Assembly: GCF_001865575.2 (NCBI RefSeq)
Contig: NZ_CP017563.2
Coordinates: forward strand, 434,001-498,000
Direction: 5' to 3'
DNA from: Paraburkholderia sprentiae WSM5005
Lineage (GTDB): Bacteria > Pseudomonadota > Gammaproteobacteria > Burkholderiales > Burkholderiaceae
Length of the DNA stretch: 64,000 nt
Shown here: piece after piece, positions 39,282-56,109 of the stretch
Position numbering within the stretch: position 1 is the first letter of the stretch
Layout of the letters: each line of letters begins with the position of its first letter
Translations under genes and position numbers: made by a program
Notes under the pieces: generated by a model
Seen by the model: only the letters and a program-made list of their open reading frames with translations
Databases searched by the model: none
Told to the model about the DNA's origin: nothing

Positions 39282-40181
39282 TCACCTTAACGTCAGGCTT
39301 TCTGCGGCAAGCAGGTTCGTCGGATCGCCGAAACCGTAAAGTCTCGCGGGATTATCTACGAGGATCTGACGGCGGGTGGACGCGCATCCAGTCCATCGGT
39401 TCAGACCGGCAATAATGTTTGATGGCTGCGGACCGGGCCTCATTGACGTATGTGGCCAATCGCTGCCCCAGACCAGGCGATCCGGAGCAACACTGATCCA
39501 GTGTTGGGCCATCACGTCCATATCCGAAAACGTGCCGGCCTCTCCGATCAGTGAGTCGAGATAAGGTGCCGACAGCTTGAGCCACGCGCGACCAGTCGTG
39601 AGCCATCGTTCGACAAGTCCTCTGGCTGGGTGCGCTAGTCCAGCCCGTATTGGCAGCCGGGCCAGATGATCGAACACGAACTCGGTAGGAATGCGATCCA
39701 GCAAATTGCTGTACTCGACGATCTGGGCGGCAGTCCAGTGCAGCTGTAAATGCCAGCCGAGCTCATGCACCCGGTGGCTCAACGTCTCGACCATTTCAAA
39801 ACTGGTGGGCGCATCGTCGGATGTGTAGAGCGTGAACCGGATGCCGCGAATGCCGCCAGCGTTAAGCGCATCAAGTTCGCCATCGGTGATGTCTGGCCGG
39901 ATGGTCGCGATGCCGCGTGCCCGGTCGATGCCTAGCTGGCGGATAGCATCCAGAGTAACGGTGTTGTCTACATCGTAATTTCGCGGGGTGACAATCACGG
40001 TGCGGGTCGTGCCGAAGCTCGGCTGAACCTGCCGATAGTCGTCAACGGTTGTCGGCACCGCCGACATATCATCAGCAGCAAGCGTTTGCCTGAACCTGGC
40101 GTCGAAGATATGGATGTGTGCATCGCATGCGTCGGCGGGTACGTGGTGCTGCACCTCGGTTGAAGCGGCCTGTCTTTTCAT
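39282..40181 (-). CDS. Amidohydrolase-2 family hydrolase (lactonase-like)
   Basis: 299 residues. Metal-binding DAHIHIFDARFR at residue about 20 (HxH), His in HWTAAQIV region, FVFDHLARLP at about 170 and WGSDWPHTSM near 240 (catalytic Asp). This is the layout of TIM-barrel lactonases such as 2-pyrone-4,6-dicarboxylate lactonase and galactarolactone isomerase. Last gene of a leftward operon; its ATG overlaps the stop of the aldolase gene by 4 bases (40178-40181), so the two are translationally coupled. Cytoplasmic; the true substrate is unknown, perhaps a lactone or cyclic derivative of the imported compound. Confidence 0.88.
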   Translation of the reverse strand: MKRQAASTEVQHHVPADACDAHIHIFDARFRQTLAADDMSAVPTTVDDYRQVQPSFGTTRTVIVTPRNYDVDNTVTLDAIRQLGIDRARGIATIRPDITDGELDALNAGGIRGIRFTLYTSDDAPTSFEMVETLSHRVHELGWHLQLHWTAAQIVEYSNLLDRIPTEFVFDHLARLPIRAGLAHPARGLVERWLTTGRAWLKLSAPYLDSLIGEAGTFSDMDVMAQHWISVAPDRLVWGSDWPHTSMRPGPQPSNIIAGLNRWTGCASTRRQILVDNPARLYGFGDPTNLLAAESLTLR

Positions 40182-41263
40182 GCCTGCCCCTGCTTTTCTA
40201 ACACTTGTGCGAACGCGTCGACGGTGTGACTGATATCGGCATCGTCAATATGGCGATGGGTCACGCACCGGATAGTTTTTTCGCCCCACGGACGAGTCAG
40301 TACGCCCAATTCGGCTAGCGCTTTGACCCATTGATGACTGGACATTCCTGTTCCCCCGACGTGCACCTGCACGATATTGGTTTGAGGTTCACCGGCGGCA
40401 AAGGGCAAGGGCGCGCCTAGCGCGTTCAGACGCGTGCTAAGCACGCGCGCCTTGGCGTGGTCGTCCGCAAGTCGCTTGCTCATGGTCCGCAGGGCTTCAA
40501 GGCCGGCGGCGGCCATGATGCCTGCCTGGCGCTGCGTGCCGCCAAGCATCTTGCGATATGCCCGCGCTCGCGCAATTGCGGCATCGCTCGCCGCGAGCAC
40601 CGCGCCAACAGGTGCGCTCAGGCCTTTGGAGAGACACAGCGAAACGGATTCCGCATGTTGCGCAAGCGTCGCCGCGGGCAGGTTGAGTGCGGCCGCCGCA
40701 TTCATCAGGCGCGCGCCGTCTATGTGCACGGATACGCCGGCCCCCCGCGCAATCTGATGCGCACCCTGCATATGTGCGAGTGGCAATACAGCGCCGCCGG
40801 CATTGTTGTGTGACGTCTCCATCGCGATGAGGCCAACTCGGATCCTGTGGGAACCGGGCCTGACGGCCGCCTCGAGCCGGTCCAGATCCATCGCGCCGGC
40901 CTTGCCTTCGATTGGCGTGTAAGCAAGGCCAGCAAGCAACGAGCCGCCGCGCTCGGTGGTGAACATATGGGCGCTCGATTCGAGCAGTACCTGTTCGTGC
41001 CGTTGCGTATGAGCAAGCACTGCGAGCAGGTTCGCCATTGTGCAGGTGGGCACATAGAGCCCGGCGTCCTTGCCTAGCATCGCCGCAACGGCGGTTTCAA
41101 GCGCATGGACGGTCGGATCGCCATCGAGACCATCATCGCCGACTGGCGCCTCACGCATGCACGCATACATGGCCTCGGTCGGGCGGGTGACGGTATCGCT
41201 GCGCAGATCTGCCAGCCGCGCGTGATGTGCGTGGCGGGAATCAAAAATGGGAAAGTCCTGCAT
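40178..41263 (-). CDS. Threonine-aldolase-like PLP enzyme (beta-eliminating lyase family)
   Basis: 361 residues. Fold type I PLP enzyme of the low-specificity L-threonine aldolase group: ADLRSDTVTRPTEAMYACMR at the N-terminus, EAPVGDDGLDGDPTVHALE, VHIDGARLMNAAAALNLPAA and the PLP lysine in SLCLSKGLSAPVGAVLAASD. The family cleaves beta-hydroxy amino acids to glycine and an aldehyde. It lies 17 bases after the ABC ATPase gene and overlaps the amidohydrolase gene, so it processes what the importer brings in (inference). Substrate could also be a phenylserine-like or beta-hydroxyaspartate-like compound. Confidence 0.9.
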   Translation of the reverse strand: MQDFPIFDSRHAHHARLADLRSDTVTRPTEAMYACMREAPVGDDGLDGDPTVHALETAVAAMLGKDAGLYVPTCTMANLLAVLAHTQRHEQVLLESSAHMFTTERGGSLLAGLAYTPIEGKAGAMDLDRLEAAVRPGSHRIRVGLIAMETSHNNAGGAVLPLAHMQGAHQIARGAGVSVHIDGARLMNAAAALNLPAATLAQHAESVSLCLSKGLSAPVGAVLAASDAAIARARAYRKMLGGTQRQAGIMAAAGLEALRTMSKRLADDHAKARVLSTRLNALGAPLPFAAGEPQTNIVQVHVGGTGMSSHQWVKALAELGVLTRPWGEKTIRCVTHRHIDDADISHTVDAFAQVLEKQGQA

Positions 41264-41280
41264 ATCGGCTCTTTGAAAGG

Positions 41281-42015
41281 CTAGTGATGGAGGATCTTCG
41301 ACAGGAAATGACGCGAGCGCTCGCTGCGTCCCGCGGTGCCGCCAAAGAAGTCGTCCTTGCTGCAGTCTTCGACGATGCGGCCGCCGTCCATGAAAACGAC
41401 GCGATCGGCGACGCGTTGCGCAAATCCCATCTCATGAGTGACGACCATCATCGTCATGCCATCGCGGGCAAGATCCGTCATCACGTCGAGCACTTCGTTC
41501 ACCATTTCCGGATCGAGTGCCGACGTCGGCTCGTCGAACAGCATGACGGCTGGATCCATCGCCAGCGCCCGGGCGATGGCCACGCGCTGTTGTTGACCAC
41601 CTGAGAGTGCTGCGGGATATTTGTCCCGATGCGCCGCGAGACCGACCCGTTCAAGAAGCTGCATGGCCCGTTTCTGGGCCGCGCCGCGATCGCGTTTGAG
41701 TACGCGCGTCTGGGCGAGGCACAGGTTCTCGAGGACGCTTAGATGCGGAAACAGTTCGAAGCCCTGGAAGACCATGCCTGCGCGTGAGCGGATCTTGCCA
41801 AGATCGACGCGAGGTCCGGTGACGCCGATCCCGTCGATATGGATTTCGCCTCGCTGGACAGTTTCGAGACCGTCGACGGTCTTGATAAGCGTAGATTTGC
41901 CCGAGCCGGACGGACCGCACACCACGACCACTTCGCCTGCGGCCACCTGCGTGCTGCAGTCGGTCAGCACCCGGAAGGCGCCATACCACTTACTGATATT
42001 TTCAATCTGGATCAT
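41281..42015 (-). CDS. Polar amino-acid ABC transporter ATPase (GltL/GlnQ type)
   Basis: 244 residues. Walker [20 protein letters not shown]-loop [17 protein letters not shown], signature [20 protein letters not shown], Walker [21 protein letters not shown] and switch His in [10 protein letters not shown]. Energises uptake of a polar amino acid or opine-like compound. Starts 18 bases after the second permease gene; fourth gene of the operon. The C-terminus ([19 protein letters not shown]) is the usual amino-acid ATPase ending. Confidence 0.95.
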
Positions 42016-42033
42016 AGAGATTGGTCAGCCGGA

Positions 42034-42720
42034 TCAGTGCGCGTGCCGCGCGGTTTCGAAACGTTTGATGAAACGCGATGCGCCAAAGCAGATAACGAAA
42101 TAGACGAGCGCGGCCAACACGTACATCTGCACCGTGCTGCCATCGCGAGCCGCGATTTCGGAAGCTGCGCCGAAGAAATCGGTCATCGAAAGCACATACA
42201 CGAGGGACGTGTCCTGGAACAGCGTAATCACACGCGTCAATAATGCAGGTGTCATGTTGCGCACGGCCTGAGGCAGCACGACCGTGATCATCGTCTGACG
42301 ATAACTGAGCCCAAGCGCGAGACCTGCCTGCACCTGTCCTCTTGCGATGGACGCAATGCCGGCGCGCATGATTTCGCAGAAGTAAGCGGACTCAAAGAGC
42401 GTGAACGTGATGACAGCGGAGCGATACGCGCCGACGTCGACCGGAGTGGGCGAATGTACGATCCATGCACCGACGTACGGCGCGAGGAAAAAGAACCAGA
42501 AAATCACCAGCAGCAGCGGCACGGAGCGCATGCCGTTGACATAGAGCGTTGCTGGCGTAGAGAGCAGCCTGGATGGCGACATCCGGCACAGCGCGAGCAG
42601 CGTACCGAGCATCAGGCCGAACGCGGCAGCGAGTGCGGTGAGCGTCAGCGAAAAAGTCAGGCCGACTTTCAGCAGATACGGCAACGAGGCGGCAATTTCT
42701 TTCAGTCCGAGGAAGGTCAT
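42034..42720 (-). CDS. Amino-acid ABC transporter permease (GltK type)
   Basis: 228 residues, about five membrane segments. HisM-type permease motif EAA is visible as GQVQAGLALGLSYRQTMITV VLPQA. The N-terminal LLKVGLTFSLTLTALAAAFG and NGMRSVPLLLVIFWFFFLAP regions are characteristic. Forms the heteromeric membrane channel with the permease encoded upstream, 10 bases away. Confidence 0.93.
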   Translation of the reverse strand: MTFLGLKEIAASLPYLLKVGLTFSLTLTALAAAFGLMLGTLLALCRMSPSRLLSTPATLYVNGMRSVPLLLVIFWFFFLAPYVGAWIVHSPTPVDVGAYRSAVITFTLFESAYFCEIMRAGIASIARGQVQAGLALGLSYRQTMITVVLPQAVRNMTPALLTRVITLFQDTSLVYVLSMTDFFGAASEIAARDGSTVQMYVLAALVYFVICFGASRFIKRFETARHAH

Positions 42721-42730
42721 GATGTCTGTC

Positions 42731-43507
42731 CTAAGATTGCTCGACTTGGGACAGCGGCGACGCGGACGATACCTTGCGCGAGCCGGCCGACGGCGCCGCT
42801 AACCTACGCTCGACAAGCATCAGCCCATAGACGACCACGCTGTTGATCGCGAAGTAGATCAGCGTCGCGGCGCTGAACGCTTCGAAGGTGTGAAAACTGA
42901 ATTCCTGCATCGACCGCGCCGCTCCCGTCAGTTCGAGCAGGCCGATCGTCATCGCGACCGAAGAGTATTTGATCGTCGCCATCAACTCGGACGTGAGCGG
43001 CGGCACCACGACCCGAAACGCCTGCGGCAGGATCACGAAGCGGTACGCCTGGAATCCGGACAGACCAAGCGCGAGCGCGGCCTGCCGCTGGCCCGCGCGC
43101 AGCGACCGGATGCCGGAGCGCAAGGTTTCCGCGATGCGCGCCGTGCCGTAGAAGCCGAGACAAAGCAGCGCGGGGAAAAACTGGCCGCACGGCTGCTGGA
43201 TCTGTTTGATGGCGGTGCCGAGTGACCTGGGAAGCAATTCCGGCAGCACGAAATACCAGAGAAACATTTGCACCAGCAGCGGCACGTTGCGGAACAACTC
43301 CACGTACGTCGCAGCAATAGTTCGCGCGATCTTCGAATCGACCGTACGCATCACGCCAATGATCGAGCCGAGCAGCAGCGCGATAGCATAGGCGCTCACC
43401 GCGAGTGCAACGGTCCAGCATGCTCCGATCTGCATCGTCTGCAGGTAGGTATGGACACCGTCGGGCGAGAGGTCGTTGAAACTGGCCCAGTTCCACTGAT
43501 AGTTCAT
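42731..43507 (-). CDS. Amino-acid ABC transporter permease (GltJ type)
   Basis: 258 residues. Longer of the two permeases, with SAYAIALLLGSIIGVMRTVD, ELFRNVPLLVQMFLWYFVLP, the extra periplasmic loop RSLGTAIKQIQQPCGQFFPA and the EAA motif RAGQRQAALALGLSGFQAYR FVILPQAF. Separated by 36 bases from the binding-protein gene upstream. Ends in a charged cytoplasmic tail. Confidence 0.93.
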   Translation of the reverse strand: MNYQWNWASFNDLSPDGVHTYLQTMQIGACWTVALAVSAYAIALLLGSIIGVMRTVDSKIARTIAATYVELFRNVPLLVQMFLWYFVLPELLPRSLGTAIKQIQQPCGQFFPALLCLGFYGTARIAETLRSGIRSLRAGQRQAALALGLSGFQAYRFVILPQAFRVVVPPLTSELMATIKYSSVAMTIGLLELTGAARSMQEFSFHTFEAFSAATLIYFAINSVVVYGLMLVERRLAAPSAGSRKVSSASPLSQVEQS

Positions 43508-43543
43508 GGCTGCGCGGACTTGAAGTAGGGTTGCTTAAGTGGC

Positions 43544-44473
43544 TTATTGATAGGCCGCGGGATCGCCGGAATCGGACGGATGTTCGAAGGCATGTTTAAG
43601 CTCGGCGCTCATCGGATACTTCAGATTGATGCCATTCGGCGGCACCGGCGCGTTGAACCATTTGTCGTACATCGCGTAAATCTGTTTTGACTTCATGAGC
43701 TCGAGTACCGCGCCGTCCACGGCCTGCTTGAAACGGGGATCGTCCTTGGGTTCGACGATGCCGTACGGCGCGAGCAGCATTGCCTTCGTGCCAATCACAT
43801 AGTCCTGTGGCTGGTCTGACGTTGCGACCAGACCGTAGGCGAGCCCGTCGTCCGTCGAGACGGCCATCGCGCGGCCGGTCTTCACCGCGATGAAAGACGC
43901 CGCGGTGTCGTTGACCGGGAGCACCGAAATGTTCAGATGTTGCTGCGTGCTGATCTGCTGGATGACCTGCAGGTCCAGGCCCCCCGCAAGGCTCGTCACA
44001 GTCTTGCCCCTGAACGCGGCGGGCGTGTTCACATCGAGCCCACTGTCCTTGCGGGCCATCAGCACGACCTTCGCGACGTACGTAGTCGGTGCGAACGAGA
44101 CGAGCTTGTGGCGCTCGACCGTGTTGGTGGTGTTGCCGCATTCCAGATCGATTGTGCCGTTCGCCAGTAGAGGCAGACGCGTGGCCGACGTCACGGGCAG
44201 ATAGCGGATTTTCAGATCGGCAAGGCCAAGCGTGCTCTTGAGACTGGCAGCGATGCGCTGGCATATTTCGACCGAGTAGCCGACCGGTTGATGGGCGTTG
44301 TCCAGATAGGCGAACGGCAGCGAGGTGGTCGGATAGCCGACGGTAATCGTGCCGGTTTCCTTGATGCGATCGAGCCGGCTGGAGCTATCCGCATAAGCTG
44401 TGCTCGTCAGGCCAAGTCCTGCGTAGAACCCGGCGAGCGTCATCGCAGCGGTCAGGATAGAGGAAAGTTTCAT
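43544..44473 (-). CDS. Periplasmic amino-acid binding protein (GltI/FliY type)
   Basis: 309 residues from ATG 44473 (AAGGA upstream); the reading from 44536 has no signal. Signal peptide MKLSSILTAAMTLAGFYAGL to STAYA. SBP_bac_3 fold: RIKETGTITVGYPTTSLPFA, VGYSVEICQRIAASLKSTLG, TNTVERHKLVSFAPTTYVAK (signature IDLECGNTTNT-like). Captures the ligand in the periplasm for the GltJKL-like transporter. First gene of a six-gene operon; divergent LysR gene 155 bases upstream likely controls it. Confidence 0.93.
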   Translation of the reverse strand: MKLSSILTAAMTLAGFYAGLGLTSTAYADSSSRLDRIKETGTITVGYPTTSLPFAYLDNAHQPVGYSVEICQRIAASLKSTLGLADLKIRYLPVTSATRLPLLANGTIDLECGNTTNTVERHKLVSFAPTTYVAKVVLMARKDSGLDVNTPAAFRGKTVTSLAGGLDLQVIQQISTQQHLNISVLPVNDTAASFIAVKTGRAMAVSTDDGLAYGLVATSDQPQDYVIGTKAMLLAPYGIVEPKDDPRFKQAVDGAVLELMKSKQIYAMYDKWFNAPVPPNGINLKYPMSAELKHAFEHPSDSGDPAAYQ

Positions 44474-44628
44474 GTCCTTAGTTTCCCTTAGTGATCGATA
44501 TTGACCGCGATTCCGGACCGCTGCAGTGCGATTCAAAACAACGGAACCTGCTGAACTACGAACTAAATATCGGTCACCATTATGCTAAAGTCCAATGCGT
44601 CTCTCGCATTGAACGATACAGAAACGAT

Positions 44629-45558
44629 ATGCAGAAGCTAAAGTTAGGATTTCGCCACATCGAGGCTTTCCGTGCGGTCATGTCGTCAAACTCGATGACG
44701 AACGCCGCTCGCGTCATGCATACATCGCAGCCGCAGGTGAGCCGCCTGATATCGCAGCTCGAGAGCATTACGGCGTTCCCGCTTTTCGAACGTAACGGTA
44801 GCCGGCTCAATCCCACCCAGGACGGATTGCGTTTTCATCGCGAAGTGGAACGGACCTTCGCCGGGCTGGCGGAACTTGAATCGGTGGCTGCCAACATCCG
44901 TTCGTTCAGCGCAGCGCGGCTGAGCATCGCCGCGATGCCGCGGCTGGCGGGCGATCTGCTCGTTAAGGTTGTCGCTGAATTTCACGCTGCGCACCCGGAT
45001 GTTCTGGTGTCAATTCACTCTGGCAACGCGGTGAATGTGGAAGAGTGGGTCCGCTCCGGCTTCTGCGATACGGGACTGGCTCTGCTCACCGGGGATGCGC
45101 CTCACATCCGCCGCGAGACGATCGCGACTCTCCGGTGCGTCGCGGTGCTGCCGAAAGACCACCCACTTTGCCGCCTGCGCAGGCTGAAACCCGCGCACTT
45201 CGCAAATCAGCGGTTCATCGCACCCACCGGAGAAAGCGCGCTCAGATCCACGATTGACGATGTATTCGCGGCCGGGCATGTGTCTCGTCAGATCGTCGCG
45301 GAGGCAAGTCTTGGTTCGTCGGTGTGCGCGTTGGTGCGCACAGGCATGGGCATCAGTCTGGTCAACCCGCTAGCAGCTCGCGATGAGTTTGTTAATGGAG
45401 GGATCGAGGTGCGGCCCTTCGCGGTGAATATACCGAGCGAGGTTGCGCTGCTGTTCCCGCCCTACCAGGCTCAGACCCGCCTGGTAAGTGCATTTGCACA
45501 GATAGCGCGTCCGGTTATCCGCGAAGAGATGGAAGTGCTGAATAAAATGTACACGTAG
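44629..45558 (+). CDS. LysR-family regulator (OccR/NocR-like)
   Basis: 309 residues from ATG 44629 (MQKLKLGFRHIEAFRAVMSS); the upstream extension to 44491 is not family-like. Helix-turn-helix NSMTNAARVMHTSQPQVSRL with ISQLESITAFPLFERNGSRL, effector domain from about 90. The MTNAARVMHTSQPQVSRLI style is close to opine-catabolism regulators OccR/NocR, which control adjacent opine ABC importers. Divergent from the GltIJKL-like operon, its probable target, with a 155-base promoter region between. Confidence 0.9.
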   Translation: MQKLKLGFRHIEAFRAVMSSNSMTNAARVMHTSQPQVSRLISQLESITAFPLFERNGSRLNPTQDGLRFHREVERTFAGLAELESVAANIRSFSAARLSIAAMPRLAGDLLVKVVAEFHAAHPDVLVSIHSGNAVNVEEWVRSGFCDTGLALLTGDAPHIRRETIATLRCVAVLPKDHPLCRLRRLKPAHFANQRFIAPTGESALRSTIDDVFAAGHVSRQIVAEASLGSSVCALVRTGMGISLVNPLAARDEFVNGGIEVRPFAVNIPSEVALLFPPYQAQTRLVSAFAQIARPVIREEMEVLNKMYT

Positions 45559-45737: not shown

Positions 45738-46952
45738 TCAAGTTTCGATCGCCTGCGCAAGCGATTCCGCCGTTGCGGCGGACAGGGTCCAACCGAGATG
45801 GCCATGTCCCGTGTTGTAGAAAACGCCTGGGCGCTTGCCGCGTCCGACTCGCGGCAACATGCGTGGCAGCATAGGGCGCAGGCCCGCCCATGGAATGACC
45901 CGCGCGGTGGAGACTTCCGGGAACAGGCGGCGGGTCCATTCGACCAGCGGCGTCACGCGGTCCGCACGAATGTCGCGACTGAAGCCGTTGATTTCAGCCG
46001 TGCCCGCCACGCGGAAACGATCGACGCCGAGCCGGCTCGTGACAATCTTGGCTTTGTCGTCGAGCAGGCTGACCCAAGGCGCCGCGCGGCGGCTTTGTTC
46101 GTCGTCGAGGCAGACGGTGATTGAATAACCCTTCACCGGATAGACGTTGACGCGGTCGCCCAGCATGGCGCCGAACGCGCGACTGCCGACACCTGCGCAA
46201 ACGACGATCTGTTGGAAAACGTCCACGTTCCGTGCACCCGCGTTCGTCGCGTCGATGGTGAAGTGTCCGTCACCGCCTTGCTTGATCGAGTCGATCGACG
46301 TGTCGTAACGGAATTCGACACCGCGACGCACGCACGCGTCGGCCAGACCGCGCGTGAACTTGTGAATGTCGCCCGTCGAATCGGACGGTGTGAAAAAGCC
46401 GCCGTAAAACTGGCCCTGCAACGCCGGTTCGATGAGACCAATTTCGTTCGCGCCGACGGCATAACGATCCAGGCCGCCTTCACGCAGCAGCACGTTCACT
46501 CGCGCGGCGGCGTCATAGTCCTTGCGATGCGCATAGATATGCAGGATGCCGCGGCGCTCCAGATCGAACTGGATGTCTTCGCGCTCCGCAATCGAAAAGA
46601 GATGCTCGCGTGCGGCCAGCGCGAGGCGTACCGTTTCGATGGTATTCACGCGGTAGTTCGGGATCTGCCGCAGGAATTCGCCCATCCACGAATACTTGTG
46701 CCATGAAGGAGACGGATTCAACAGGAGCGGAGCGTCGCGCGTCAGCATCCAGCGCAGTCCTTTCAGGACGGTGGCCGTATGGTTCCAGACCTCCGCATTG
46801 CTGACCGAAAGCTGTCCCCCGTTCGCAAACGAGGTTTCCATCGCCGCATAGCGATGGCGTTCGTAGACGGTGACATTGAAGCCGCGGCGGGCGAGGGCGT
46901 AAGCGGTCGTGACGCCGGTGATCCCGGCGCCGATAATGGCGATTCGTGACAT
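45738..46952 (-). CDS. dadA: DadA-type D-amino-acid dehydrogenase/glycine-oxidising flavoenzyme
   Basis: 404 residues from ATG 46952 (MSRIAIIGAGITGVTTAYAL); the frame runs upstream into the riboswitch but that part is not coding. FAD motif GAGITGVTTAYALARRG, the DAO-family RHRYAAMETSFANGGQLSVS, mid-domain VVCAGVGSRAFGAMLGDRVN and C-terminal RPMLPRMLPRVGRGKRPGVF with YNTGHGHLGWTLSAATAESL. DadA enzymes oxidise D-amino acids to 2-oxo acids, passing electrons to the quinone pool at the membrane. A tandem glycine riboswitch precedes it, so glycine is a likely substrate or signal. Family-level symbol. Confidence 0.88.
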   Translation of the reverse strand: MSRIAIIGAGITGVTTAYALARRGFNVTVYERHRYAAMETSFANGGQLSVSNAEVWNHTATVLKGLRWMLTRDAPLLLNPSPSWHKYSWMGEFLRQIPNYRVNTIETVRLALAAREHLFSIAEREDIQFDLERRGILHIYAHRKDYDAAARVNVLLREGGLDRYAVGANEIGLIEPALQGQFYGGFFTPSDSTGDIHKFTRGLADACVRRGVEFRYDTSIDSIKQGGDGHFTIDATNAGARNVDVFQQIVVCAGVGSRAFGAMLGDRVNVYPVKGYSITVCLDDEQSRRAAPWVSLLDDKAKIVTSRLGVDRFRVAGTAEINGFSRDIRADRVTPLVEWTRRLFPEVSTARVIPWAGLRPMLPRMLPRVGRGKRPGVFYNTGHGHLGWTLSAATAESLAQAIET

Positions 46953-47033
46953 AAGATGGTCCAGATCGAGTTGAGCATCCCCGGTTGGCTGCGATCGCGA
47001 TGCTTCGCGCAAGACGGCCTCCGGCGTTTGATG

Positions 47034-47210
47034 CCCCATCTGTTCCTGTACCTGAGAGTTTCGCCCGGCCGACAAGGTCAGGCTCCCCTTCGGTGGACGC
47101 ACGCAGCGTCACTCTCCAGATGTTCCTGCAGCACAGTCCTTTTGCCTGAGAGTTTCCGGGGCGGTTGCTCCGTCGGCGTCGCTCACTGAACGATCTCTCC
47201 CGTGCTGCAT
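47034..47210 (-). promoter_or_regulatory. Tandem glycine riboswitch upstream of dadA-like gene
   Basis: Read on the minus strand, the first aptamer has CACGGGAGAGATCG, the arm GACGCCGACGGAGCAACCGC and the core GAAACTCTCAGGCAAAAGGAC (split here at 20: GAAACTCTCAGGCAAAAGGA). The second has CTGGAGAGTGACG, CACCGAAGGGGAGCCTGACC and GAAACTCTCAGGTACAGGAA followed by CAGATGGGG. Two successive glycine-aptamer consensus cores (GGAGAG...CCGA-GGAGCAA/GGGAGC...AAACTCTCAGG) separated by a short linker are diagnostic. It ends 81 bases before the dadA start; those bases form the expression platform. Likely an on-switch for glycine use. Confidence 0.95.
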
Positions 47211-47494
47211 AGGTGGAACCGCATGACGTTACATGACAACGCGGGCCGCTACAAGCATCCAATAACTTGGTTTGCCGTTTGACGTTTGATGCGCAAGCGC
47301 CGAGCAGGAATCGTCTTTGGCCCGGTTACTGGTACGCGGGCAAATGAAGACTCTGGATGACCGGCGGACTCTTGGCGTCGTACGAACTTTTGGGTTATTC
47401 GGTATCGAGGTGAAACTTTCAACGCATTCTGTACCGGCCAGACCGGGGCAATACCGGCCCCACGCTGGCCGGTCAGCACACCCATAACCCGCAG

Positions 47495-47745
47495 CTAACC
47501 GGTTACGTAGCCATAGTCGAGATCCCGTTTCACGAGGGACGGCTCACGCAGTCTCGGATCGCCAAAGCCTCCTCCTCCCGCTGAACGCAGCGTCAGCACT
47601 GCTCCGGGCATCAGCGTCGCGTTGGCGTCTTTGCTGCCTAGCGTGACAGTTTCGCCGCCCTGTTCGATGGTGTAGTGATGCACTGCCCCTGGCTGTCCGC
47701 CTTGGAGGCCATACGGTGCGATAACTTCACCGCTTGGTGCGATAA
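47495..47745 (-). pseudogene. Hydantoinase B/oxoprolinase, C-terminal fragment
   Basis: From about 47745 leftwards the frame reads SGEVIAPYGLQGGQPGAVHH, GAVLTLRSAGGGGFGDPRLR and REPSLVKRDLDYGYVTG, the C-terminal end of hydantoinase B (HyuB) proteins, where GGGGFGDP is characteristic. The N-terminal hundreds of residues are absent; instead the frame is fused to an MHS transporter start. The fragment lies immediately left of the duplicated block. Confidence 0.75.
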
Positions 47746-47910
47746 TGGCGACCGTTGGATTGTCAGGCGGGAAGAAGATCGGCGGGAACGCCAACGACGC
47801 CGCAGTCGCATGGATGAAGAAGTCGTAATGCTCCAATGCCGAGCCAATCGAGCCGCTGGTGCGGCGATCTTCCGCTGGCGCTGGTCGTGGGGCTTAACCA
47901 GGGTGTTCCG
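47746..47910 (-). pseudogene. MHS-family transporter, N-terminal fragment (diverged duplicate)
   Basis: Translation MEHYDFFIHATAASLAFPPI with FFPPDNPTVAIIA copies LEYYDFFIYATAASLVFPQL FF-type sequence of the gene at 52970-54403. At the DNA level 47745-47910 aligns with 54231-54405 with many substitutions and a few indels, and its upstream end (MNRNTLVKPHDQRQRK) is frameshifted relative to the rest. Only about 55 codons remain before the hyuB fusion. Confidence 0.8.
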
Positions 47911-47928
47911 ATTCATGCCTGTCTTATT

Positions 47929-48741
47929 ATGAGAGTTGTCAAGGGAGCAGTTGACCGGTCGCTGCAGGCGATCGAGTTGCTCGCACGTGAGGCGCGCTGG
48001 ATGCGTATGTCCGATATCGCCGCCGAACTCGGGCTGGAGAAGGGCCCCGCCCATCGGGTGCTCGCGCAACTGTGCGAGCAGGGTTGGGCGGAACAGGATG
48101 AACAGACGTCGCAGTACCGTTTGACCTTGAAGCTGTCCCTGCTCGGTCAGCGGTACCTGCATGGGCTCGGTCTGCCGGGCCTGGTGCAGCCGATCCTTGA
48201 CGAAGTCGCCGCCCAGTGCCGCGAGCTGGTCCGGCTGACGGTGGTCAACGAAGGAACACTCGCGTGGCTGGCAGCGTCCCAGGGCGCGGCACCGGGCCTG
48301 ATGTATTCGCCGTCCATGCACAGTCCCATCGTCTTGCACGCCACCTCGGTTGGCAAGGTGTGGCTGGCTGGAATGCCGAACGACCAGGCGATCGAATACG
48401 CCCTGCGTGGCGGACTGGGGAAAGCGTCCGCCGCCGGCGCATGGACGCCGAAGGCCATCACCAGCGTCGAGCAGTTGATTCCGGAGTTGGAGCGGACCAG
48501 GCAGCGTGGCTATGGTCTTGTCGTTGAAGAGGCCGAGCCGGGCGTCGTCGCATTGGCCGTGCCGGTGCGTTCGCTGTCTGACGATGTGGTGGTGGGCACC
48601 ATGAGTATTGCCGGACCGGTCACGCGGTTTCAGCCGGAGCGTTACGAGGCCTTTTACGCGCTATTGCAACAAGCGTCCGCGAAACTGGGTGCCGTATGGC
48701 CGCGCCAGAGCGTCGGTGCGCATGAGAATGAGGCGGCATGA
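47929..48741 (+). CDS. IclR-family regulator, duplicate copy A
   Basis: 270 residues, almost identical to the protein at 54488-55300; I see only two residue differences near the C-terminus (F/V in TRFQPE, E N/V S in HENEAA). N-terminal winged helix-turn-helix AIELLAREARWMRMSDIAAE LGLEKGPAHRVLAQLCEQ, then the IclR effector domain (PIVLHATSVGKVWLAGMPND). Intact, but the about 66-base divergent promoter region of copy B is missing here: only GTCTTATT separates it from the MHS start. It may be unexpressed or use another promoter. Confidence 0.9.
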   Translation: MRVVKGAVDRSLQAIELLAREARWMRMSDIAAELGLEKGPAHRVLAQLCEQGWAEQDEQTSQYRLTLKLSLLGQRYLHGLGLPGLVQPILDEVAAQCRELVRLTVVNEGTLAWLAASQGAAPGLMYSPSMHSPIVLHATSVGKVWLAGMPNDQAIEYALRGGLGKASAAGAWTPKAITSVEQLIPELERTRQRGYGLVVEEAEPGVVALAVPVRSLSDDVVVGTMSIAGPVTRFQPERYEAFYALLQQASAKLGAVWPRQSVGAHENEAA

Positions 48742-48835
48742 ACATGCCGGGCGCAGATCAGCCTATCGAGCGACTCACCGGTTTCGATGAACACGCAGCA
48801 CGCCTTCTCGTCGCGGCGCGCCGGCAGGACAAGCG
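48738..48835 (+). pseudogene. 2-keto-pentenoate hydratase, N-terminal fragment
   Basis: ATG overlaps the IclR stop (ATGA) as in copy B. Reads MNMPGADQPIERLTGFDEHA ARLLVAARRQDKR, matching MNTQGADQALERLTAFDEHT ARILVTARRQGTL of the intact gene at 55297, then leaves homology at about 48835. Nothing of the hydratase fold remains. Confidence 0.75.
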
Positions 48836-52969: not shown

Positions 52970-54403
52970 CTAGGAGCGCAGTTGGTTCGTCAGGTCCTGT
53001 GAGTCGGCTGTTCCGGTCGCCTCACGCAACATCTCGACGCGCAGACGATCGTATTCGCCTTTGGGTACAGGGACCGCGTTGCGGTCGCCGAGATCGTGGA
53101 GCCGGACCCGGTACGTCTCGCGGGTGGTAAAGGCGGCGATCGCGGCCACGACACAGATGCCGAATGTCAGGGCTCCGATCTTCAGTGGAATATTGGCGGA
53201 GCCGGGGGGCGCGACCGCGACGAAGAATGCCGGGAGCAGCGCGGACAGCGTCGTCCCGACGTTCTGCCCAATGGCCATCCCGGACACACGCACGCGTGTG
53301 TGGAACAGTTCGGAGAACAGGCTCGGGAATACGCCGTTGAAGCCCTGATAGGCGATGCCCCACATGAGCACCGAGAGAACCATCGCCAGCCACACGTTAT
53401 GGATGCTGATAGCGTACAGATACACGAACGAGAGCAGTCCAGCGCTGAGGGTGCCGACAAGGACTGGCGGCCTGCGACCAATCCTGTCCGAGAGGTTGCC
53501 GACGAAGGGAATCAGGATCACTGCGCAGATATTGCCCAGAACAGGGATCCACAGATACATGCCGGGAGGGAAGCCGATGCCGTACGCCGGCTGAACCGCG
53601 TAGGCGGTGCCGAAGACCGCGGCGACAAGGGCGATTACGGCGGTAAGCGCCATGCAGACCACGCGCACGACATCGTCCCAGCTCTGCCGGAGCACTTCGA
53701 CGACTGGCGAGGCGGGAATTTCGCCATGCACGCGCTCCTCGGCGAACGCCGGGGTCTCATCGACTTTGCGGCGAATGATGTAGCCCGCGATGAGAACGAC
53801 AATGCTGAGCAGGAACGGAATCCGCCAGCCCCAGGAGGTGAACTGGTCCCTGGGCATGAAATGCGCGAGAGGCAGGAAGATCGCTGCCGCCATGAGCTGT
53901 CCGGCCTGCACCCCCTGGAGGGTAAAGCTCGCGAAGTAGCCGCGCCGACCGAACGGTGCGTGCTCGAGAATCATTGAACTGGCGCCGGAGAGCTCCCCGG
54001 CGACCGCGAAGCCCTGGATGAGGCGAAGAACCACGAGCAGCACCGGCGCCCAGATGCCGACCTGCTTATAGGTTGGCAGGACCCCGACGGCCATCGTTGA
54101 AAAGCCCATGAGGAACATGCAGAGGAGCAGCACCGTCTTGCGGCCATGGCGGTCGCCCCAGTGGCCGAGGACGACGGCGCCCACCGGGCGGGCGATATAG
54201 CCGACACCGAAGGTTGCCAGTGAGGCGATGATGGCGACCGTTGGACTATCAGACGGAAAGAAGAGCTGCGGGAACACCAGCGACGCCGCAGTTGCGTAAA
54301 TGAAGAAGTCGTAGTACTCCAGCGCCGAGCCGATCCAGCCGCTGGCCGCGGCGATCTTCGACTGGCGCTTGCCGTGAGGCTTAACCCGGGTGTTCCGATT
54401 CAT
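52970..54403 (-). CDS. MHS-family MFS transporter (organic acid/proton symporter)
   Basis: 477 residues from ATG 54403, preceded by TGGAGACAAGC; ATG 54415 is less well placed. Twelve membrane segments. Signature of the metabolite:H+ symporter family: SALEYYDFFIYATAASLVFP and GAVVLGHWGDRHGRKTVLLL, RLIQGFAVAGELSGASSMIL EHAP. These carry shikimate, citrate, proline betaine or alpha-ketoglutarate. Divergent from the IclR gene, so it is the likely uptake step of the cluster and probably under IclR control. Confidence 0.92.
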   Translation of the reverse strand: MNRNTRVKPHGKRQSKIAAASGWIGSALEYYDFFIYATAASLVFPQLFFPSDSPTVAIIASLATFGVGYIARPVGAVVLGHWGDRHGRKTVLLLCMFLMGFSTMAVGVLPTYKQVGIWAPVLLVVLRLIQGFAVAGELSGASSMILEHAPFGRRGYFASFTLQGVQAGQLMAAAIFLPLAHFMPRDQFTSWGWRIPFLLSIVVLIAGYIIRRKVDETPAFAEERVHGEIPASPVVEVLRQSWDDVVRVVCMALTAVIALVAAVFGTAYAVQPAYGIGFPPGMYLWIPVLGNICAVILIPFVGNLSDRIGRRPPVLVGTLSAGLLSFVYLYAISIHNVWLAMVLSVLMWGIAYQGFNGVFPSLFSELFHTRVRVSGMAIGQNVGTTLSALLPAFFVAVAPPGSANIPLKIGALTFGICVVAAIAAFTTRETYRVRLHDLGDRNAVPVPKGEYDRLRVEMLREATGTADSQDLTNQLRS

Positions 54404-54487
54404 GCTTGTCTCCATCGTGATTGACTTTCCGGTGCTGTTTGTCTATTGTTGTAACACCGTTCCACTAAGAACCATGTTACGTCAATT
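54404..54487. promoter_or_regulatory. Divergent MHS/IclR promoter with inverted repeat
   Basis: 84 bases between the two starts. Contains an imperfect inverted repeat around GGTTCTTAGTGGAAC (minus strand; plus GTTCCACTAAGAACC, 54459-54473), a plausible IclR-type operator. This segment is missing from duplicate copy A. Confidence 0.5.
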
Positions 54488-55300
54488 ATGAGAGTTGTCA
54501 AGGGAGCAGTTGACCGGTCGCTGCAGGCGATCGAGTTGCTCGCACGTGAGGCGCGCTGGATGCGTATGTCCGATATCGCCGCCGAACTCGGGCTGGAGAA
54601 GGGCCCCGCCCATCGGGTGCTTGCGCAACTGTGCGAGCAGGGTTGGGCGGAACAGGATGAACAGACGTCGCAGTACCGTTTGACCTTGAAGCTGTCCCTG
54701 CTCGGTCAGCGGTACCTGCATGGGCTCGGTCTGCCGGGCCTGGTGCAGCCGATCCTTGACGAAGTCGCCGCCCAGTGCCGCGAGCTGGTCCGGCTGACGG
54801 TGGTCAACGAAGGAACACTCGCGTGGCTGGCAGCGTCCCAGGGCGCGGCACCGGGCCTGATGTATTCGCCGTCCATGCACAGTCCCATCGTCTTGCACGC
54901 CACCTCGGTGGGCAAGGTGTGGCTGGCTGGAATGCCGAACGACCAGGCGATCGAATACGCCCTGCGTGGCGGACTGGGGAAAGCGTCCGCCGCCGGCGCA
55001 TGGACGCCGAAGGCCATCACCAGCGTCGAGCAGTTGATTCCGGAGTTGGAGCGGACCAGGCAGCGTGGCTATGGTCTTGTCGTTGAAGAGGCCGAGCCGG
55101 GCGTCGTCGCATTGGCCGTGCCGGTGCGTTCGCTGTCTGACGATGTGGTGGTGGGCACCATGAGTATTGCCGGACCGGTCACGCGGGTTCAGCCGGAGCG
55201 TTACGAGGCCTTTTACGCGCTATTGCAACAAGCGTCCGCGAAACTGGGTGCCGTATGGCCGCGCCAGAGCGTCGGTGCGCATGTGAGTGAGGCGGCATGA
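54488..55300 (+). CDS. IclR-family regulator, copy B
   Basis: 270 residues. Winged helix-turn-helix (residues about 5-60: AVDRSLQAIELLAREARWMR, SDIAAELGLEKGPAHRVLAQ) and IclR effector domain (SMHSPIVLHATSVGKVWLAG, GYGLVVEEAEPGVVALAVPV). No clear ribosome binding site precedes ATG 54488, suggesting a leaderless or weakly translated message. Its stop overlaps the ATG of the hydratase gene (ATGA, 55297-55300). Likely autoregulates and controls the MHS gene and the rightward catabolic operon. Confidence 0.93.
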   Translation: MRVVKGAVDRSLQAIELLAREARWMRMSDIAAELGLEKGPAHRVLAQLCEQGWAEQDEQTSQYRLTLKLSLLGQRYLHGLGLPGLVQPILDEVAAQCRELVRLTVVNEGTLAWLAASQGAAPGLMYSPSMHSPIVLHATSVGKVWLAGMPNDQAIEYALRGGLGKASAAGAWTPKAITSVEQLIPELERTRQRGYGLVVEEAEPGVVALAVPVRSLSDDVVVGTMSIAGPVTRVQPERYEAFYALLQQASAKLGAVWPRQSVGAHVSEAA

Positions 55301-56109
55301 ACACGCAGGGAGCAGATCAGGCTCTCGAGCGACTCACCGCGTTCGATGAACACACAGCACGTATCCTGGTCACGGCGCGCCGGCAAGGCACGCTCGCGGA
55401 GCGCCTTCCCATCGAACTGCGGCCCACGAATGTGGACGAGGGTTTCGCGATCCAGCAAAAGGTGGGCGATCAGCTCGGTTGGCAGACTGGCGCGTGGAAA
55501 TGCGCGCTGCCGCCGGCGGGCAAGCTCATCGCTGCGCCAATCTATGACGCCGTCATCTATCGAGGCGCCCAATGCCGCATTCACGCCAGGCTTGCGCAGT
55601 CTTGTGTAAGGGCAGAGCCCGAACTCGCCTGTGTGCTGGCTCGCGATCTGCCGCCTCGGCGTGAAGCGTATGCCGAAGCGGAGGTGCTCGACGCTCTCGG
55701 GAATGTTCACCTCGCGCTCGAACTGCTGGGCAGTCGCTATGCGCATCCAGAATCGCTGACGTTCCCTGAATTGCTGGCAGACGGTCTGTTCAACGCCGGT
55801 CTTGTCATTGGGCCGCGCGTTCAATTGCCCGAGGGCGCGACGCCGGCCGATCTCCCGATCGAATTCCCCATCAGTCTGACTCGCGCCGGACACGACACGG
55901 TCAGTTTTGCTGGCCGCCACCCTGATCGCAGCGTGCTCGCGCCGATCGTGTGGCTCGTCAATTTTCTCCGCGTCCGCGGGCTTGGATTGCATGCCGGCCA
56001 GGCTGTGATCACGGGCTCTTACGCGGGCGTGCTCGAGTTGCCGATTGGTTGTGAATTGCATATCGGCTTTGGTGATCTCGGCACGTTGCCGATACTTTTT
56101 TCGTCTTGA
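55297..56109 (+). CDS. 2-keto-4-pentenoate hydratase-like enzyme (FAH superfamily)
   Basis: 270 residues. Hydratase/decarboxylase family pattern: RPTNVDEGFAIQQKVGDQLG, GAWKCALPPAGKLIAAPIYD, metal-binding RAEPELACVLARDLPPRREA (ExE), GSRYAHPE, and the end GQAVITGSYAGVLELPIGCE. Adds water to 2-oxo-alkenoates or acts on related 2-keto acids with divalent metal. Translationally coupled to the IclR gene, followed after 13 bases by the FAH gene; first enzyme of the rightward operon. Confidence 0.88.
   Translation: MNTQGADQALERLTAFDEHTARILVTARRQGTLAERLPIELRPTNVDEGFAIQQKVGDQLGWQTGAWKCALPPAGKLIAAPIYDAVIYRGAQCRIHARLAQSCVRAEPELACVLARDLPPRREAYAEAEVLDALGNVHLALELLGSRYAHPESLTFPELLADGLFNAGLVIGPRVQLPEGATPADLPIEFPISLTRAGHDTVSFAGRHPDRSVLAPIVWLVNFLRVRGLGLHAGQAVITGSYAGVLELPIGCELHIGFGDLGTLPILFSS

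Follow-up and report, generated by a model that had tools for sequence, protein, structure and literature searches.

Why should a glycine-sensing RNA stand in front of a gene whose protein family bears the name D-amino acid dehydrogenase? The question is raised by a 64,000-nucleotide stretch of the Paraburkholderia sprentiae WSM5005 genome (hereafter the window; positions 434001–498000 of contig C3 in genome G000, which comprises 7.84 Mb in five contigs), and its answer bears on how this bacterium and its relatives may dispose of glycine.

The tandem riboswitch and the gene that follows it

A covariance search with the Rfam glycine riboswitch model (RF00504, gathering score 32 bits) places aptamer 1 at 47124–47212 on the minus strand (70.3 bits, model positions 1–94 of 94, E = 1.2e-12 for the 64-kb window) and aptamer 2 at 47030–47129 on the same strand (54.3 bits). 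Both scores lie above the cut-off, and the initial annotation, which had read tandem glycine aptamers on the minus strand at 47034–47210 from the sequence alone, was correct to within 4 nt. The window-level search drops overlapping matches and therefore displays aptamer 1 alone; the second aptamer comes from an RF00504 search of the organism's own genome, where the pair lies at C3:481124–481212 (70.3 bits) and C3:481030–481129 (54.3 bits). The two model matches are adjacent, with an overlap of 6 nt, and a single gene start lies further on, as for a tandem before one expression platform. This start, an ATG at 46952, is 77 nt past the end of aptamer 2. Among the matches listed in the own-genome search there are four aptamers, making up two tandems, and the second tandem (C1:3534714–3534997) is directly upstream of gcvT. 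The earlier statement that the riboswitch does not serve the glycine cleavage system thus holds for the gene in the window but not for the genome, which also has a tandem before gcvT. The tandem considered here is genuine and suitably positioned, and it exists besides the one at the usual target.

The gene downstream (45738–46952, minus strand) encodes a 404-aa DadA-like FAD amino-acid dehydrogenase of the PRK12409 family. The protein matches NCBIfam NF009074 with 723.4 bits, above the cut-off of 494, and the DAO domain PF01266 with 239.3 bits, in agreement with the DAO/DadA flavoenzyme expected at this position by the initial annotation. It misses the models for canonical DadA (NF001933, 338.6 bits against a cut-off of 383) and for ThiO (TIGR02352, 128.6 bits against 250.8). 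A 424-aa predicted protein (P0001) implies an in-frame TTG start at 47012. We rejected the TTG as the usual start because it is not kept in aligned relatives, among which the ATG at 46952 is kept. The same genome also encodes a canonical DadA (C1:2531985, NF001933 708 bits), and the region upstream of that gene (L164) is without an RF00504 match.

Similarity to a near relative (G025) stops at 47325, which is 113 nt upstream of aptamer 1. Further on, a 113-aa ORF (47495–47836) starts like an MFS transporter, but its end matches the C terminus of hydantoinase B; it is therefore probably a rearrangement junction. A 901-base duplication (47926–48826 and 54485–55385, 98% identical) bears an IclR-type regulator gene, and the stretch adjoining it (47739–47924 versus 54225–54411, 85% identical) contains the 5′ portion of a gene for an MFS transporter.

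The predicted expression platform

No terminator-like site is present between 46900 and 47500, and folding of this leader and of its relatives' leaders points to control at the level of translation. The 3′ strand of the aptamer-2 P1 helix (CAGAUG, 47037–47042, minus strand) is able to pair either with the 5′ strand of P1 (CAUCUG, 47117–47122, minus strand), the predicted ON state, or with sequence ahead of the start codon, the predicted OFF state. The OFF hairpin would occupy 46958–47049 on the minus strand and include AUCUGGACC (46966–46958) just before the start codon. An unconstrained fold of the leader has the 3′ arm of P1 paired to the bases immediately preceding the ATG, and in the folding model it costs 1.7 kcal/mol to force P1 (−104.0 versus −102.3). 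With P1 forced, the unpaired probability of AUCUG (46966–46962) rises from 0.02–0.22 to 0.41–0.64, and that of the GA following it falls from 0.88/0.87 to 0.04/0.12 as these two bases close. The mean unpaired probability across the ATG and the 14 nt before it rises only from 0.52 to 0.61, and because this change in accessibility is modest we hold our overall reading of the locus slightly less firmly.

We compared the platform across an alignment of 29 Burkholderiales leaders, 28 of them distinct. Of the alignment cells, 92.8% are paired as the OFF hairpin requires, versus at most 43.0% when the pairing partner is slid, although the structure was derived from one row of the alignment and is therefore favored over the slid controls. 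Relative to shuffled alignments (mean 90.0%) the excess of paired cells is slight. Changes on both sides occur in 2 of the 17 hairpin pairs, a number that 219 of 500 shuffles also reach, and the pair types are no more numerous than in shuffles (371 of 500 match); the covariation score, in contrast, was matched by none of the shuffles. In this alignment the covariation of the OFF hairpin is modest. Pairing of the arm to the ribosome-binding region, counted at four or more pairs, is found in 30 of 30 Burkholderiales leaders and in 64 of 81 leaders overall, for which shuffles would give 33.3, and 17 of the 81 fall short. RNAalifold was unusable on the whole platform alignment, where it paired into the conserved coding region.

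These predictions make a translational ON switch likely. Without glycine, the 3′ strand of aptamer-2 P1 would pair with the ribosome-binding region ahead of the ATG; once glycine is bound, P1 would close and the ribosome-binding region would be freed.

Distribution of the riboswitch–gene pairing

The genus was surveyed in 58 genomes, with the gene called at E = 1e-150 or better. The gene is present in 34 of them, and 31 of these 34 have two aptamers within ∼200 nt upstream among the matches listed, part of which came from a search with stricter filters. Another two (G008 and G048) have one aptamer among the matches listed, and the G048 locus carries two core motifs. At least one aptamer is therefore directly upstream in 33 of the 34 homologs; the gene in G010 is without one, as confirmed by Rfam on its locus. 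Two aptamer core motifs were also found upstream at all 80 named loci (the best 80 of 595 confirmed stretches), a count made by core-motif match rather than by covariance search, on a sample that favors close relatives.

A draw of 299 genomes across the phylum, with five candidates scored per genome, gave 16 in which the PRK12409 family is above its cut-off. An RF00504 match lies upstream in 14 of the 15 family members that were fetched, or 15 of 16 with the window included. In G105 the family gene sits directly behind an amino-acid permease gene and there is no aptamer within 3.2 kb. As controls we took 45 DadA-type genes below the family cut-off, of which three have RF00504 upstream. Forty-four of these were taken in list order and the other, a paralog from the organism's own genome, out of order; the own canonical DadA is included among the 45, and two rows were skipped, G709, whose gene is close to the beginning of a contig, and the second of the G585 genes.

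In a tree of 45 rows with corrected frames, from which the short L097 sequence was left out, the three aptamer-bearing controls (L138, L144 and L147) group together as one clade (support 100/99) that is distinct from the PRK12409 side (100/100). The names Xylophilus and Variovorax are attached to close relatives of one of the three. By eye, the 5′ aptamer in this clade looks degenerate. The riboswitch state requires at least four changes on this tree, two of which are the exceptions G010 and G105, so that two separate gains, one on the PRK12409 side and one in the other DadA clade, would fit; alternatively, an old gain may have been followed by losses. Judged from these genome comparisons, the pairing of riboswitch and gene is a family trait that recurs in many Pseudomonadota.

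Several further loci came to light in the course of the survey. In two relatives (L104 and L105) glycine aptamers precede partial dadA-like matches, in L105 together with an IS66 transposase gene. At L107 (419–1385), also from a relative, a glycine aptamer pair stands before a membrane-protein ORF that, on reading by eye, we take to belong to the glycine-transporter-like UPF0126/YadS family. A 4.09-Mb Acinetobacter baumannii record in a plasmid collection (L100), probably a chromosome to judge from its size, contains a dadA-like gene with a glycine aptamer upstream.

The substrate of the PRK12409 enzyme

The solved structures nearest to the DadA-like protein, both by sequence and by fold, are the glycine oxidases 7cyx and 4ysh. 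We draw no conclusion about the substrate from the fold search because the identity is only ∼20% and the mean pLDDT of the AlphaFold model, 79, indicates moderate confidence. The genome encodes a glyoxylate carboligase (1184.8 bits, cut-off 711.2), which means that glyoxylate has an outlet.

A further indication comes from Cupriavidus necator. In the portion of PMC11879842 available to us, dadA6 is deleted as the glycine oxidase gene and the check primers are printed; its deletion in strain CRG6 improved neither growth rate nor yield any further. In that portion the word riboswitch occurs once, for a cloning tool, and no enzyme assay appears. The part of PMC12421819 available ascribes a substantial contribution in engineered C. 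necator to the native glycine oxidase. The primer dadA6-for has an exact match in one of 398 family genomes, G362. G362 belongs to Cupriavidus, as another genome of its genus (G311) is 100% identical to C. metallidurans CH34 DNA along a stretch of 1152 bases. In G362 the PRK12409 match stops 310 nt short of the end of contig C170. The dadA6-for site is on contig C166, close to the contig start and pointing toward it, and dadA6-rev is found with one mismatch upstream of the PRK12409 gene. These positions at contig ends, together with the site of the second primer, led us to reject chance as the source of the dadA6-for match. The original source of the DadA6 result is reportedly the 2020 study of Claassens and others.

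When up to two mismatches are allowed, dadA6-rev matches at 30 sites, spread over 27 of the 60 Cupriavidus genomes searched. Twenty of these sites, in 20 genomes, are directed toward the PRK12409 gene from a position 1152–1535 nt upstream; the other 10 lie elsewhere. The family occurs in 47 of the 60 genomes, in 51 copies, and all 20 of the 51 copies that were examined have two aptamer cores upstream. The primer sites that face the PRK12409 gene, together with those in G362, indicate that the Cupriavidus ortholog of the gene in the window is probably dadA6, a link made through sites with one or two mismatches and unjoined contig ends. The Cupriavidus copies are only ∼62–63% identical to the window protein. 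The initial annotation had proposed the enzyme as a candidate glycine dehydrogenase or oxidase, and the conserved riboswitch pairing and the primer link to C. necator dadA6 make it a good one.

Could the protein still be what its name implies, a true dehydrogenase of D-alanine or other D-amino acids, with glycine serving only as a signal of a mixed amino-acid or cell-wall-derived supply? The NCBIfam name and the DadA-type relatives would fit such a role, as would Burkholderia vietnamiensis G4, where an alanine racemase gene lies two genes downstream of the homolog, with one hypothetical gene between, an arrangement suited to the use of D-alanine. However, a canonical DadA is encoded elsewhere in the genome and lacks a glycine aptamer in its upstream region, the riboswitch tracks PRK12409 (15 of 16) and not DadA-type genes generally (3 of 45), and the dadA6 gene is named as a glycine oxidase gene in the available text of PMC11879842. 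We consider this alternative unlikely, if deserving of more weight than the two that follow.

The neighborhood of the gene suggested a different source for the signal. A LysR-family regulator gene (44491–45558, plus strand; PF03466, PF00126) is convergent with the dadA-like gene and separates it from a same-strand block (39282–44536, minus strand) that encodes a solute-binding protein, two permeases, an ATPase, a GntG-type aldolase and an amidohydrolase; regulator and block are both neighbors outside the unit. The threonine-aldolase-like enzyme and the amino-acid importer pointed out in the initial annotation therefore exist, the former as a GntG-type PLP aldolase (40178–41263, minus strand; NF041359, 342.4 bits, cut-off 230) and the latter as the ABC importer genes of the block. 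It had been suggested from them that glycine made by the aldolase from an imported substrate may induce its own oxidation in a local pathway. The aldolase gene does end ∼4.5 kb from the dadA-like gene, and a homolog (49–52% identity) occurs in the fetched flank at two Bradyrhizobium loci (L046 and L066) of 90, in flanks of ∼4 kb that could miss more distant cases. Yet the aldolase sits in a separate block and is near the gene in just 2 of the 34 genus members that have it, namely the organism itself and G025. We therefore rejected the aldolase as the reason for the riboswitch, and with it that part of the earlier argument. A conserved partner gene of any other kind was rejected as well: a Pfam search (E = 1e-10) of 52 of the 103 neighboring ORFs at 34 loci revealed no dominant family (LysR 7, MFS 3 and BPD transporter 3 among the first 25 of 44 families), and the dadA-like gene retains its riboswitch across these varied neighborhoods. 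A local aldolase circuit is thus very improbable. Least credible of all is that the riboswitch is a relic that no longer regulates the dadA-like gene, as the aptamers before partial matches in L104 and L105 might suggest, since both aptamers score well above the cut-off, the platform is conserved in related leaders and the aptamer is retained directly upstream in 33 of 34 genus members.

The reading we favor, and judge to be probable, is that glycine induces translation of a PRK12409 flavoenzyme whose oxidation of glycine, with glyoxylate as product, supplements gcvTHP as another route. It builds on what was observed directly, namely the riboswitch, the gene family, their conserved pairing and the location of the dadA6 primer sites. 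High glycine would act through the tandem to turn on translation of the flavoenzyme, which would oxidize glycine to iminoglycine or glyoxylate and ammonia. Electrons would probably enter the respiratory chain, to which other DadA enzymes pass theirs, and the glyoxylate would be used through glyoxylate carboligase. The whole would amount to an oxidative overflow route for glycine alongside gcvTHP, and the distribution of the riboswitch suggests that the true function of the PRK12409 enzyme is the disposal of surplus glycine in the form of glyoxylate. On balance, we also lean toward a broader proposal, that PRK12409, which carries the D-amino acid dehydrogenase annotation throughout Pseudomonadota, is really a glycine-inducible glycine dehydrogenase forming a second, oxidative branch of glycine breakdown controlled by the glycine riboswitch, and that the separate DadA clade with relatives in Xylophilus and Variovorax was brought under the same control independently.

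If glycine oxidation by PRK12409 is correct, a large protein family bears a misleading name, and many soil and plant-associated bacteria have an oxidative route of glycine breakdown that responds to glycine itself. The same reading would be relevant to why engineered formate-assimilating C. necator strains oxidize glycine, because the glycine made by the engineered pathway would itself switch the gene on.

Relation to known systems

A limited search of open-licence papers, covering main texts and the titles and abstract openings listed, found no statement of a pairing between the riboswitch and PRK12409 or dadA. In that literature, no paper was found to combine glycine riboswitch with D-amino acid dehydrogenase, and one unrelated paper combined it with amino acid oxidase. 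The words dadA, oxidase and oxidoreductase are absent from the main text of PMC3766115, oxidase and oxidoreductase from that of PMC6944388, dehydrogenase and oxidoreductase from that of PMC2211319, and dadA and dehydrogenase from that of PMC2258182. Glycine oxidase appears once in PMC12452182, for thiO under TPP riboswitches. The locus presents a known riboswitch class before an unusual but conserved target.

Among enzymes, canonical DadA (NF001933) shares a superfamily with the DadA-like protein, and the organism's own copy is 37% identical to it, but canonical DadA belongs to a clade apart and the own copy has no aptamer upstream. The ThiO glycine oxidase has the DAO fold in common with the protein, but at ∼20% identity and with a TIGR02352 score below the cut-off. 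In the case of C. necator DadA6, the sites of the primers that check its deletion point, within Cupriavidus, to the PRK12409 gene preceded by two aptamer cores, although these candidate copies differ from the window protein to the extent given above.

Among riboswitches, the tandem before gcvT or gcvTHP likewise places two aptamers before one platform, and has the ON logic for glycine breakdown that is predicted for the leader in the window; the available part of PMC13104608 describes such tandems as ON switches of gcv operons, those of Burkholderia among them. That system is present in the same genome, whereas the dadA-like target is one flavoenzyme gene that does not belong to the cleavage system. 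A glycine riboswitch also precedes the malate synthase gene glcB, mostly in SAR11 sequences of metagenomes, according to the part of PMC2211319 available. There too a glycine riboswitch is placed on a glyoxylate-linked enzyme, but the glcB product consumes glyoxylate, whereas the DadA-like enzyme is proposed to make it.
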